From NCBI RefSeq assembly GCF_000311845.1, contig NZ_HE978574.1, positions 502,063 to 566,062 on the forward strand: 64,000 bases of DNA, written 5' to 3'. This document shows positions 25,205-38,262 of the stretch, piece after piece (positions within the stretch are counted from its first letter, which is position 1; the number at the start of each line of letters is the position of its first letter). Made by a program: the position numbers and the translations under genes. This DNA is from Enorma massiliensis phI (GTDB lineage: Bacteria > Actinomycetota > Coriobacteriia > Coriobacteriales > Coriobacteriaceae). The notes below the pieces were generated by a model. That model was not told where the DNA came from. It did not search any database and was given only the letters and a program-made list of their open reading frames with translations.

Positions 25205-25233
25205 TGATAAAACGAACCAGGTTTGTTTTATCA
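25205..25233. repeat. Family 3 palindrome
   Basis: A 29-base palindrome with TGATAAAACGAACC on the left and GGTTTGTTTTATCA on the right, one mismatch, centre A. It lies in front of the kinase gene's start on the minus strand, unlike the other copies, which abut stop codons. Confidence 0.85.
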
Positions 25234-33594: not shown

Positions 33595-33804
33595 GTGCTT
33601 TCTTTGGCCGACATCATCGTGCTCGCATTGGTGGCCGTCGCGTTCGTGGCGGTGTGCGTGCGTGTGCGGCGCAAGGGGTCGTGTGCGGATTGCGCCTCGG
33701 CGGGCGTCTGCACGGGGCATTGCAGTTCGAGCACCAAGAAGAGCTGCCCGGCCATGAAGGGCGTCGACGCTGTGGCGCAGGAGCTCGAGCAAAGTGTAAA
33801 GTGA
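33595..33804 (+). CDS. FeoB-associated cysteine-rich membrane protein
   Basis: A 69-residue protein: one membrane helix (about residues 4-24, ADIIVLALVAVAFVAVCV) followed by a cysteine-rich tail (CADCASAGVCTGHC, KKSCPAM). This matches the small FeoB-associated proteins that act in place of FeoC, perhaps through a metal or Fe-S site. The GTG at 33595, nine bases after AGGAGG, is the likely start; a GTG nine bases earlier overlaps the binding site. Its TGA stop is the first three bases of a family 3 repeat. Confidence 0.83.
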   Translation: MLSLADIIVLALVAVAFVAVCVRVRRKGSCADCASAGVCTGHCSSSTKKSCPAMKGVDAVAQELEQSVK

Positions 33805-33830
33805 CAAAACGAACCCGGTTCAATTTCTCA
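33802..33830. repeat. Family 3 repeat, decayed, overlapping a stop codon
   Basis: TGACAAAACGAACCCGGTTC is intact, but the right arm has become AATTTCTCA. The first TGA ends the cysteine-rich gene. With the copy at 33997-34025 it forms the outermost inverted pair around the 141-base element. Confidence 0.8.
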
Positions 33831-33836
33831 TTCTAG

Positions 33837-33977
33837 GTTCGAGGCTCGAGTCGGTAAGTTTTTTAAGATCGGACGAGTAGACCGTGTTGTACGCAAAGCC
33901 GTTCCTGCGGTTTTATTGGCTTCAAAGGGCGGTCTACTCGGCACATCGCGAAAAACCTACCGACTCGAGCCTCGAAC
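33837..33977. mobile_element. 141-base hairpin element (family 6), copy 2
   Basis: The first 20 bases, GTTCGAGGCTCGAGTCGGTA, are exactly complemented by the last 20. The pairing continues through GTTTTT and an inner GAGTAGACC/GGTCTACTC stem, leaving a small central region. It has the same length and design as 16080-16220 and is flanked by two family 3 copies. Confidence 0.82.
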
Positions 33978-33996
33978 TTTTTGCTGTGCCTAACAA

Positions 33997-34025
33997 TGAG
34001 AAAATGAACCGGGTTCGTTTTATCA
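33997..34025. repeat. Family 3 repeat
   Basis: TGAGAAAATGAACC, G, GGTTCGTTTTATCA. The right arm is intact and the left has changes that mirror those of the copy at 33802-33830. It lies 135 bases before the GS-like gene. Confidence 0.82.
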
Positions 34026-34159
34026 AACCGGGCTCGCTGCACCATTTTGCGGGCACCGCCTATCGTGCCCCGGAAACGCTGCTGAAACAATCGTATGGCA
34101 CAGTGAACGGGTACGTGCGTGTACTGTGTGAACCCCAGTATTAGGGAGGACACTGGCTC

Positions 34160-35500
34160 ATGGATCAGCAGCAGAACATCGACTTCGTTCTTCGCACCGT
34201 CGAGGAGCGCGGCATCCGCTTTGTGCATCTCTGGTTTACCGATGTGCTCGGCAGGCTCAAGAGCTTCGCCATTAGCCCCGAAGACCTCGAGGTCGCCTTC
34301 GAGGAGGGCGTCGGCTTCGACGGCTCTGCCATCGAAGGATTCACCGCGCCCGAGGAGGCCGACATGCTCGCCTTCCCGGACCCCTCTACGTTCCAGGTGC
34401 TTCCCTGGCGTCCCTCGCACGACGGCGTGGCTCGCGTGTTCTGCGACATTCGCAAGCCCGACCGCACGTATTTCGAGGGCGATCCGCGCGAGTGCCTGCG
34501 TCGCATGTTCCGCAAGGCGGAGTCGTCCGGATACATCATGAACGTCGGCACGGAGCTCGAATACTATTACTTCCCCGACGACCACACGCCCGTTCCCATG
34601 GACGAGGTGGGCTACTTCGATCTCATGCCGTCTGATTCCGCGCGCGACCTGCGCCGTGACACCGTGCTCACCCTCGAGAAGATGAGCATCCCGGTCGAGT
34701 ACACCTTCCATTCGTCGGGTAAGTCGCAGCACGGCATCTCGTTGCGCCATGCCGAGGCGCTCACTACCTCGGATGCCATCATGACGGCCAAGTACATCAT
34801 CAAGCTCGAGGCCTATGCGTCCGATATCCATGCCTCGTTCATGCCCAAACCCATCGCGGGGGCGCCGTCGAGCGCCATGTTCCTCCACCAGTCGCTCTTC
34901 GATCGCCAGGGGAACAACGTCTTCTGGGGCGAGGACGACAACACGTACCATCTTTCCGATCTTGCCAAGCACTACATGGCGGGCATCCTTGCGCACGCGC
35001 AAGAGATCAGCGCCATCACCAACCCTACGGTTAACTCTTACAAGCGCCTCACCACGGGCGAGGGGAATACGCCCGAGTCCGCTACATGGGGGCTGCGCAA
35101 CCGCTCTGCGATGATTCGCGTTCCCATCTATAAGCCGGGCAAGCAGCTCTCCACGCGTATCGAGCTGCGCTCCCCGGATCCGATGTCGAACCCCTATCTC
35201 GTGAACGCGGTGACGCTCGCCGCCGGCCTCGACGGTATCGAGCGAAAGCTGGAGCTTCCGCCCGAGGCCACGGCCGAAATGCTCAACCAGGGCCCCGAGG
35301 CGCTGGCTGCTACCGGCTATGCGCCCCTGCCGCGCAGTCTCGACGAGGCCCTCGATTACTTCGAGGACTCCCAGTTTATGAAGGACGCGCTCGGTGAGCA
35401 TATCCACTCGTTCTTCCTCAAGAAGAAACGCGCCGAGTGGGCGAAGTTCACCTCGACGGTCACCGAGTGGGAGATCAAGCACTACTTCGCAAATTCCTAG
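34160..35500 (+). CDS. Glutamine synthetase family protein with altered metal site
   Basis: A 446-residue protein that follows type I-alpha glutamine synthetase end to end (VGFDGSAIEGF, NPTVNSYKRL, NRSAMIRVP). Compared with Bacillus GlnA from memory, three metal ligands remain: Glu132, Glu134 and Glu335 (STRIELRS). Three are lost. HHEVAPGQHE is FHSSGKSQHG here, putting Ser185 and Gly192 in place of two glutamates. NGSGMH is PSSAMF, putting Phe241 in place of the ligand His. Ordinary glutamine synthesis therefore looks doubtful; it may act on another amine, or as a regulator. AGGGAGG lies 11 bases before the ATG. A GlnR-like regulator follows. Confidence 0.85.
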   Translation: MDQQQNIDFVLRTVEERGIRFVHLWFTDVLGRLKSFAISPEDLEVAFEEGVGFDGSAIEGFTAPEEADMLAFPDPSTFQVLPWRPSHDGVARVFCDIRKPDRTYFEGDPRECLRRMFRKAESSGYIMNVGTELEYYYFPDDHTPVPMDEVGYFDLMPSDSARDLRRDTVLTLEKMSIPVEYTFHSSGKSQHGISLRHAEALTTSDAIMTAKYIIKLEAYASDIHASFMPKPIAGAPSSAMFLHQSLFDRQGNNVFWGEDDNTYHLSDLAKHYMAGILAHAQEISAITNPTVNSYKRLTTGEGNTPESATWGLRNRSAMIRVPIYKPGKQLSTRIELRSPDPMSNPYLVNAVTLAAGLDGIERKLELPPEATAEMLNQGPEALAATGYAPLPRSLDEALDYFEDSQFMKDALGEHIHSFFLKKKRAEWAKFTSTVTEWEIKHYFANS

Positions 35501-35723
35501 CGAAGTTCGGGTGGCTGCGCGGTAACGACCTTGTGTCCGCCGTGCAGCTGAGCGTGCCGTCTGGCCGGTCAGTTGAAGGTTCCGGCAACGGGCACGGGCC
35601 GGCGGAGGCGCGCAGGGTCGCAGGAAGGGTTTTATGATCCCTCCTACGTGCGGAAATGCGCATCTGCGCTGCAAGTGGTAGGTGTTTTACGGTAAGATAA
35701 AGCAACGCGTTAGGAGGTGCTGC

Positions 35724-36675: not shown

Positions 36676-38262
36676 ATGGATGAGAAGTATCCCCAGCGTC
36701 CCGAGGGGACCGCGGCGGGCGAGGGCACGGCGTCCTCACCGCGCATAGAGATTGAGCCCACGCCTCAGGCGCCGCAGGGAGCGGCTCCCGCGAGCGCGTC
36801 TTCTGCGCAGCCGACCGTGCCTCAGACGGGGAGCGCACAGGCTGGCTCTCCGCAGGCTGGCACCGCACAGACGGGCACCCATGCGGCCCCATCCGGTGCC
36901 TCGTGGGCAAACCCCTCTGGCACCGCGGGCCCGGCGCAGCCAACGCAGCAGTACGCTGCCCCGCAGGTGGCAGCCGGCGCAGGCGCGTCTGGCGCGGGCC
37001 GCGACCCCCGTTCGTCTCAGGCGCCCTCCGCGCCGGCCGAGACGATCACCCATACCGTGGTGAAGACGAAAACCAAGAAGCTCCCGGTCTTCGTCTCGTC
37101 GCTCGCCGGCCTGGTGGTTGGCGCGGTGCTTGTGATCGCGCTGGTCATGACCGGTGCGCTTCGCATCGGCAGCACCAACGTGGATGCGCCTGCACTTTCG
37201 GATAGCGGCTCGAACCAGACAATTCAGATCGATGCCGAGGATACGACGCTCGCCGAGGCGGTATCTGCCAAGGCGCTGCCCTCGGTGGTCTCCATCACGG
37301 CGGTGAACGAGGGTTCCGGCGAGGGTGGCATCGGGTCGGGCGTGATCCTCGATACCGATGGCAACATCCTCACGAACTACCATGTCATCGAAGGCGCGAC
37401 GACCATCAACGTTTCAACGAACGATGGCGCGAGCTACGAAGCCGAGCTGGTGGGGCAGGACGAGTCGAGCGACCTTGCAGTCATCCGCCTGCAGGGCGCC
37501 GATGCAAGCTCGCTCACGCCCATCGAGATCGGCGACTCCGACAGCCTCACGGTTGGCGAGTGGGTCATGGCAATCGGTAGCCCGTTCGGCAACGAGCAGT
37601 CCGTCTCCACGGGCATCGTGAGCGCGCTCTACCGCTCGACCGCCATGCAGTCCACTTCCGGCACCACGATCTATGCGAACATGATCCAGACCGATGCCGC
37701 CATCAACCCCGGCAACTCGGGCGGCGCGCTCGTGAACGACAACGGCGAGCTCATCGGCATCAACTCGATGATTGAGTCCTACTCCGGCTCGAGCTCGGGC
37801 GTTGGGTTTGCCATTCCAGTGAACTACGCGATCAACATCGCTCAGCAGATCATCGATGGCGAGACCCCCGCGCACCCGTACATCGGCGTGACGGTGACCA
37901 CGGTGAACGCGTACTCCGCGCGCCAGAACAACCTTGCGGTCAGCGAGGGCGCGTACGTGAACTCCGTGAACGCCGACAGCCCGTCCGAGGAGGCGGGGCT
38001 CCGTGAGGGTGATATCGTTACCGCGGTCGACGACACGCAGATTACCTCGGCCGACGGTCTCATCATCGCAGCGCGCGAGCATAGCATCGGCGATACGGTC
38101 ACGCTAACCGTGGTGCGCGATGACGAGACCATCGAGGTTGATGTGACGCTTGGCTCCGATGCCGAGGTGCAGGCCGAGAGCCAGGACGGCACGACGGGGG
38201 AAGGCTCCGGTAACTCGCTCAGCGAAGAGGAGCTGCGTCAGTACCTCGAGGGGCTCATGTAA
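36676..38262 (+). CDS. HtrA/DegP-type membrane-anchored serine protease
   Basis: A 528-residue protease. The first 130 residues are disordered and rich in Pro, Ala and Gln. A membrane helix follows (about 137-158, VSSLAGLVVGAVLVIALVM), then a trypsin-like domain with His236 (TNYHVIEG), Asp266 (SSDLAVIRL) and Ser348 (NPGNSGGAL), and a C-terminal PDZ domain (YIGVTVTTVNAYSARQ onward). It should face outside the membrane and degrade misfolded envelope proteins under stress. AAGGAAG precedes the ATG. Confidence 0.93.
   Translation: MDEKYPQRPEGTAAGEGTASSPRIEIEPTPQAPQGAAPASASSAQPTVPQTGSAQAGSPQAGTAQTGTHAAPSGASWANPSGTAGPAQPTQQYAAPQVAAGAGASGAGRDPRSSQAPSAPAETITHTVVKTKTKKLPVFVSSLAGLVVGAVLVIALVMTGALRIGSTNVDAPALSDSGSNQTIQIDAEDTTLAEAVSAKALPSVVSITAVNEGSGEGGIGSGVILDTDGNILTNYHVIEGATTINVSTNDGASYEAELVGQDESSDLAVIRLQGADASSLTPIEIGDSDSLTVGEWVMAIGSPFGNEQSVSTGIVSALYRSTAMQSTSGTTIYANMIQTDAAINPGNSGGALVNDNGELIGINSMIESYSGSSSGVGFAIPVNYAINIAQQIIDGETPAHPYIGVTVTTVNAYSARQNNLAVSEGAYVNSVNADSPSEEAGLREGDIVTAVDDTQITSADGLIIAAREHSIGDTVTLTVVRDDETIEVDVTLGSDAEVQAESQDGTTGEGSGNSLSEEELRQYLEGLM

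Follow-up and report, generated by a model that had tools for sequence, protein, structure and literature searches.

The stretch of Enorma massiliensis phI analyzed here (64,000 nucleotides of contig NZ_HE978574.1, in the following the window) encodes a glutamine synthetase (GS)-like protein with the fold of a type I-alpha GS (GSI-alpha), in which the metal ligands E212, E220 and H269 are missing (Table 1; ligand numbering refers to Salmonella GS, i.e., E129, E131, E212, E220, H269 and E357, unless a window residue is given). Judged from the sampled sequences, this ligand loss is fixed across a clade comprising the Coriobacteriaceae and the Atopobiaceae. Next to the GS-like gene lies a gene for an OmpR-type GlnR-like regulator. 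As best explanation, we propose with moderate confidence that a catalytically dead GSI-alpha probably turned into a dedicated nitrogen-status sensor for the adjacent GlnR.

Table 1. Positions of the GS-like gene, the replaced ligand codons, the neighboring regulator gene and the predicted promoter elements in the window.
Feature	Position	Strand	Evidence and remarks
GS-like protein, GSI-alpha fold, 446 aa	34160..35500	+	metal ligands E212, E220, H269 missing; profile match, alignment, AF2
Ser185 codon, position of n1 ligand E212	34712..34714	+	E in 39/39 canonical; S/A/G/D/T in 31/31 of the clade
Gly192 codon, position of n1 ligand E220	34733..34735	+	E in 38/39 canonical; G/A/C/V/S in 31/31 of the clade
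Phe241 codon, position of n2 ligand H269	34880..34882	+	H in 39/39 canonical; F/Y/L/S in 31/31 of the clade
OmpR-type GlnR-like orphan pseudoreceiver, 220 aa	35724..36386	+	profile searches; alternative longer start at 35682 unlikely
GlnR box GAAAC-n6-GAAAC	34073..34088	+	pattern and matrix; form known from actinomycetes (PMC10704036)
Candidate -10 CACAGT, TG before it	34099..34104	+	10 nt after the GlnR box; spacing conserved in relatives; predicted promoter

Metal ligands and conserved pockets of the GS-like protein

The open reading frame is intact, begins with an ATG and carries AGGGAGG a few bases 5' of the start. Its product is matched full length by the Pfam domains Gln-synt_N and Gln-synt_C, and over residues 9-443 it can be aligned to the GSI-alpha of Methanosarcina mazei (8s59), gap-free around the active-site motifs in question. 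By this alignment all residue calls of the original prediction were correct: Glu132, Glu134 and Glu335 (E129, E131 and E357) are retained, and Ser185, Gly192 and Phe241 are the replacements. At the level of the motifs, GPELEF is retained as GTELEY, HHEVAPSQHEID is changed to FHSSGKSQHGIS and GVNGSGMH to GAPSSAMF. No new Glu, Asp or His is found beside the lost ligand positions in the window protein, and H184, H191, H243 and E180 all have counterparts in canonical proteins, H191 and H243 being usual there, not universal. The gap-free alignment and the lack of new acidic or histidine side chains rule out that the ligands are supplied from neighboring residues.

An AlphaFold2 (AF2) model of the window protein (pLDDT 81, pTM 0.87) adopts the GSI-alpha fold and superimposes on archaeal GSI-alpha structures with a Z-score of 47.4 and a root-mean-square deviation of 2.2 over 415 residues, placing the protein within the GS fold. 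The model was used for the fold only, and no claim is built on residues 289-303 (E-flap) and 149-157, which have a pLDDT <50. Measured by the six metal ligands, the protein falls outside the catalytic type I GS, and it is predicted to be unable to bind both of the metals that phosphoryl transfer requires. Its score with TIGR00653, the profile for catalytic GSI-alpha, is 403.1 and lies under the curated cut-off of 429.15, as do the scores of all four clade members compared (4/4), the five canonical relatives (5/5) being above it.

A GSI match is present in 279 of 298 genomes of the class, for which the ligands were surveyed with one representative per genus. Families were handled as group codes: f1 is the window's own family, the Coriobacteriaceae, and we interpret the codes f2 and f3 as the Atopobiaceae and the Eggerthellaceae, respectively. 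E212, E220 and H269 are absent from 31/31 sampled sequences of Coriobacteriaceae and Atopobiaceae and present in 38 to 39 of the 39 canonical relatives from the class; the ligands are retained in the Eggerthellaceae, in f4 and f5 and in the further families of the class that were sampled. The loss is common to all of the close relatives found in a DNA scan (Collinsella, Enorma and uncultured Coriobacteriaceae) and universal among 50 Coriobacteriaceae sequences, with S/A at position 185, G/C at 192 and F/M/L at 241. In most Atopobiaceae E129 is replaced additionally, by Lys or Arg. In a tree calculated without the motif columns, the 31 ligand-less proteins form a single clade with a support of 100/100, which answers with yes the earlier question of whether the substitutions are fixed in a Coriobacteriia clade. 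A loss confined to one species or to Collinsella is ruled out, as it spans both families. Two Eggerthellaceae genomes stand apart: in G072 (L140) only E129 is lost (Ala) and the protein branches beside the ligand-less clade, being a possible intermediate, and G132 (L154) encodes a diverged GS and lacks GlnR.

From 136 sites conserved among the canonical relatives the clade keeps 106 and loses 13, and these losses cluster around the metal site. Conservation within the clade amounts to 90-100% for D50, Y179, E131, R321, R339, R344, E357 and R359, with D50 and Y179 being present in the window as D54 and Y152. The median pairwise ratio of non-synonymous to synonymous substitution rates (dN/dS) is 0.22 for the GS-like protein (1174 pairs within the family) and 0.17 for GlnR. 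The GS-like protein is thus stable and under selection. Its dN/dS, the conserved pocket arginines and the intact frame rule out decay, and the near-invariant active-site residues bear out the original prediction on this point.

Moreover, the allosteric site for 2-oxoglutarate (2-OG) of archaeal GSI-alpha is conserved in the clade. In M. mazei it is formed by F24, R26, S38, R87, R172', R173' and S189' (PMC11957540), and related residues of the site are given in PMC10799026; the chain index is shifted by one compared to PMC11957540 and the site was matched residue by residue. The window equivalents are F21, H23, S35, R84, R165, R166 and T182. Across the 49-50 family sequences, the Phe is found in 49/49, the R26 equivalent in 46/49, the R87 equivalent in 49/49 and the equivalents of R172 and R173 (helix 3) in 50/50, and the S189 position is S/T in 50/50; in the Atopobiaceae each residue of the site is kept in 21 to 24 of 24 sequences. 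The window protein, with A37 and V90, has none of the features by which 2-OG is blocked in the GS of B. subtilis and M. shengliensis.

A second glutamine synthetase, the neighboring GlnR and its boxes

The window genome (2.28 Mb, 99.9% complete) encodes one further GS outside the GS-like locus, which answers the question of a second GS raised along with the original prediction. This is a type III GS (GSIII) of 696 aa that comprises a GSIII_N, a catalytic and a C-terminal domain and in which the motifs GLEQEYF, HNEVAPCQHE, NGSGKH and FEFR are intact, so glutamine synthesis need not rely on the GS-like protein. GSIII is likely the enzyme for glutamine synthesis in Collinsella, Enorma and Olsenella-type bacteria. 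It is distant in sequence from the GS-like protein, PF00120 covering it only in part, and it is present in 221/229 genomes of the order. Since it is near-universal in the order, including families with a canonical GSI, acquisition of GSIII as a trigger private to the clade is ruled out. GSIII was probably in place before the ligands were lost and is permissive for the loss, not specific.

The GlnR-like protein consists of a degenerate receiver and a winged helix-turn-helix (wHTH) domain (PF00486, E 2.5e-23), right after which it stops, leaving no GS-binding C-tail; no adjacent kinase was seen. For PF21695, the Pfam GlnR N-domain, it scores 26.8, just under the cut-off of 27. In a search of the PDB with the profile of the GlnR-like family, 8hig and 8hih, which we take to be GlnR entries, rank at the top with E about 1e-41, followed by RegX3 with 1e-30.

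GlnR is encoded directly 3' of GS in Coriobacteriaceae, Eggerthellaceae, f4 and most of the deeper families. In nearly all Atopobiaceae it adjoins GS or is found 1-5 kb downstream, beyond genes for a solute-binding protein, a permease and an ATPase (glnHPQ type); a loss of GlnR from this family turned out to be wrong, the gene being located further behind this transporter or on a separate contig. Both GS and GlnR are present in 204 of the 215 genomes of the order and both are absent from ten; one genome has GS only and none has GlnR only. The sole genome with GS and without GlnR is a 130-contig assembly, and three of the ten genomes counted as lacking GS, in which the GS match is diverged or which are members of family f6 without any match, were scored as orthologue-lacking. 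In other actinobacterial classes, 12/13 of the best GlnR loci inspected adjoin a GSI gene with canonical ligands; the two genes were therefore paired before catalysis was lost. Furthermore, at least 18 of 54 family genomes have no P-II (e.g., G064, G078, G154, G160, G171 and G185) and all of these possess the GS-like gene and GlnR, which fits a P-II-independent sensor.

Predicted GlnR boxes of the 5-6-5 form are found at nitrogen genes. Most relatives show the same arrangement of box and -10 element as the window at -70 to -110, and the 10-nt spacing from box to -10 is as in the pho boxes of PhoB. The strict box pattern occurs in 38 of ~70 GS promoters sampled across the class (~0.1 expected). 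With a matrix trained on 29 relatives, the window being excluded, the site of the GS-like gene scores 38.3 and the runner-up in the 64 kb scores 6.4. In the whole genome the GS-like promoter is the sole match to the strict pattern, and a relaxed pattern matches the promoters of the GS-like gene and GSIII only. The own GSIII promoter has a matrix score of 7.2, a value not reached by any of 2000 random 400-bp stretches, and matrix sites are present at GSIII in 4/4 Eggerthellaceae promoters and in about half of those from Coriobacteriaceae and Atopobiaceae. Across 61 family genomes, the box pattern resulted in 186 matches vs. 5 for a reversed control. Nine box sites were inspected by hand, as a sample and not as a regulon: genes behind sampled boxes encode GSIII, a glnHPQ-type operon, glutamate dehydrogenase (gdh), a LivK-type transporter, CstA and aspartokinase, and two boxes without an obvious nitrogen role precede genes for an SBF symporter and an FAD oxidase.

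Several further features were observed at these loci. In Atopobiaceae (L163, L165, L167, L169, L171 and L172) the N-terminal domain of the intervening glnHPQ-type permease is unusually long and contains the motif KATARPNEDGG. A gene for an HtrA/DegP-type protease (PF13365 and PDZ) is located 3' of GlnR at 36676-38262, and similar genes are likewise found after GlnR in several Atopobiaceae loci. Just upstream of the GlnR box, a nearly perfect inverted repeat of ~223 bp (33803-34025; RNA fold -125 kcal/mol) looks like a miniature inverted-repeat transposable element (MITE)-like element inside a terminator-like palindrome; its ~145-bp core is found at about nine genomic places with 71-76% identity. 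The palindrome AAAACGAACCCGGTTCGTTTT(ATCA), or a close variant, occurs at 25206, 28772 and 40691, solitary near gene ends and at many more places genome-wide, and the AAAACGAACCCGGTTCGTTTT palindromes probably represent a family of terminator-like repeats.

A proposed nitrogen sensor without catalysis and its alternatives

The GS-like protein might have arisen from an ancestral actinobacterial GSI-alpha that was both an enzyme and the partner of GlnR. With GSIII supplying glutamine, the ancestor of Coriobacteriaceae and Atopobiaceae would have dropped the catalytic metals, keeping the regulatory surface and the 2-OG pocket, and the protein would still form rings. 2-OG, the level of which rises under nitrogen shortage, would bind between the subunits as in M. 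mazei GS, thereby altering ring conformation or assembly. This changed state might promote (or release) GlnR, which from its box in the -35 position would switch on genes for nitrogen uptake together with GSIII and the GS-like gene. The inactivity of the protein, the identity of the ligand, the binding of 2-OG, the contact of GS and GlnR and the direction of the effect are proposed here by reasoning from sequence comparison. A GS-like regulator working with the GlnR next door, as suggested by the original prediction, is well supported by the adjacency of the genes, their co-loss, the GlnR boxes at the GS gene and at GSIII and the intact second GS. The extension of the ligand loss to the Atopobiaceae, the retained 2-OG site and the age of the GS-GlnR pair, which predates the loss, go beyond that prediction. 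More tentatively, the clade-wide pseudo-GS might be a dedicated 2-OG receptor controlling the OmpR-type GlnR, and the pairing of GSI-alpha with GlnR the ancestral way in which actinobacterial GlnR receives its signal; the 2-OG receptor, if true, would be the larger step.

Several observations weigh against the proposed sensor. The window protein differs from the 2-OG pocket at R26 (His) and S189 (Thr), and the 2-OG residues are common to canonical Coriobacteriia GS as well and may in part serve ring packing. The arginine of glutamine feedback, R62 of B. subtilis and R66 of M. mazei, has been lost, with A63 in the window, and the flap glutamate E327 (E304 of Bacillus) is replaced by N303, the flap Glu being lost also in several relatives; as R62 and the flap Glu are changed and GlnR has no C-tail, the Bacillus mode of GS-GlnR control is not preserved in detail. 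The Fisher p of 2e-16 for co-occurrence of GS and GlnR was calculated without correction for phylogeny from genomes that are not independent, and a single deletion could remove both adjacent genes, making co-loss weaker than it appears. The GSIII box is weaker, several GSIII promoters of Coriobacteriaceae and Atopobiaceae score low, and the pattern for the whole-genome search was relaxed after the GSIII site had been seen.

An alternative to 2-OG as signal, which we regard as unlikely, is that the protein is a regulatory partner of GlnR sensing glutamine or glutamate in the old active site. This would be in agreement with the (near-)invariant residues for the amino acid substrate (R321, R359, Y179 and E131) and with the precedent of Bacillus, in which glutamine is sensed (PMC9249791). 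However, the lost R62/R66 arginine is the one on which glutamine feedback of known GSI-alpha depends (PMC11957540), G265 is replaced by Ser in the Coriobacteriaceae and the flap Glu is missing in the window protein and several relatives.

It is even less probable that the protein is still active as a ligase, either on another substrate or with a remodeled metal site, for which the conserved ATP- and substrate-binding residues R339, R344, R321 and R359 might speak. The gamma-glutamyl amine ligases GlnA3/GlnA4, PauA7 and GmaS are likewise GS-like paralogues with altered active sites. However, the substrate-shifted GlnA3 and PauA7 show the opposite pattern, as they retain the metal ligands and the glutamate/ATP residues and have lost D50, Y179 and E327 (PMC5403932): there the ammonium pocket is changed and the ligands are kept; in the clade D50 and Y179 are kept and the ligands are lost. 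Moreover, small residues interchange freely at positions 185 and 192, so that no new site is formed there, no compensating acid or His is nearby, and the TIGR00653 scores separate the clade members compared from the canonical relatives. The earlier suggestion of another substrate or metal arrangement is thus left without support. The least probable alternative is a pseudo-subunit with a structural or inhibitory role, modulating GSIII or some other enzyme through direct contact, the adjacency of GlnR being an evolutionary relic. It could draw on the wide distribution of GSIII in the order, on its GlnR box and on the small regulators bound by GS proteins elsewhere, but GSIII is distant in sequence and the GS-like gene tracks GlnR and not GSIII, GlnR-less genomes with GSIII having no GS-like gene.

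Comparison with known systems

Both pseudo-GS proteins and transcription factors regulated by GS have been described before. The vertebrate lengsin, as an example, is a eukaryotic lens protein of the GS fold that is not known to have GS activity or a link to a transcription factor. In the open literature searched we found no whole bacterial clade that retains a ligand-less GS together with an OmpR-type GlnR, and in the open-licence literature no link of GS and GlnR in Collinsella or other Coriobacteriia. According to reviews, it is unknown which signal acts on GlnR, the global nitrogen regulator of actinomycetes (PMC10704036, PMC12632262). The clade provides a natural lineage with a candidate sensor stripped of catalysis, in which sensing would be separable from glutamine synthesis. 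The comparative data also show GSI-alpha and the OmpR-type GlnR to be an old pair. Members of the affected families (Collinsella, Enorma and Olsenella-type relatives) live mostly in the gut and the mouth, and a "glutamine synthetase" annotated in these bacteria should not be taken for GS activity in metabolic models.

The GS-GlnR and GS-TnrA circuits of Bacillus and Paenibacillus resemble the system in that the GSI-alpha gene adjoins "GlnR" and that GS is the nitrogen sensor controlling the regulator (PMC9249791). In Bacillus, glutamine-bound GS grips the tail of GlnR in its active site (PMC9249791). However, GlnR there is of the MerR type and has a GS-binding C-tail, whereas the protein encoded here is a tail-less OmpR-type regulator, and the window GS is devoid of the metal ligands, R62 and the flap E304. 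With the OmpR-type GlnR of Streptomyces, Mycobacterium and Amycolatopsis the window GlnR shares the orphan pseudoreceiver and the same 5-6-5 box (PMC10704036), and it differs from them by its location beside a GSI-alpha gene. Closest in fold and sequence are the 2-OG-activated GSI-alpha of M. mazei and M. thermolithotrophicus (Z 44-47, about 40-43% identity, same 2-OG pocket); these are active metal enzymes, whereas the ligands are missing here. Finally, in M. smegmatis the essentiality of glnA2 is bypassed by overexpression of glnR (PMC6142876), which is a precedent for a genetic link of a GS paralogue to an OmpR-type glnR.
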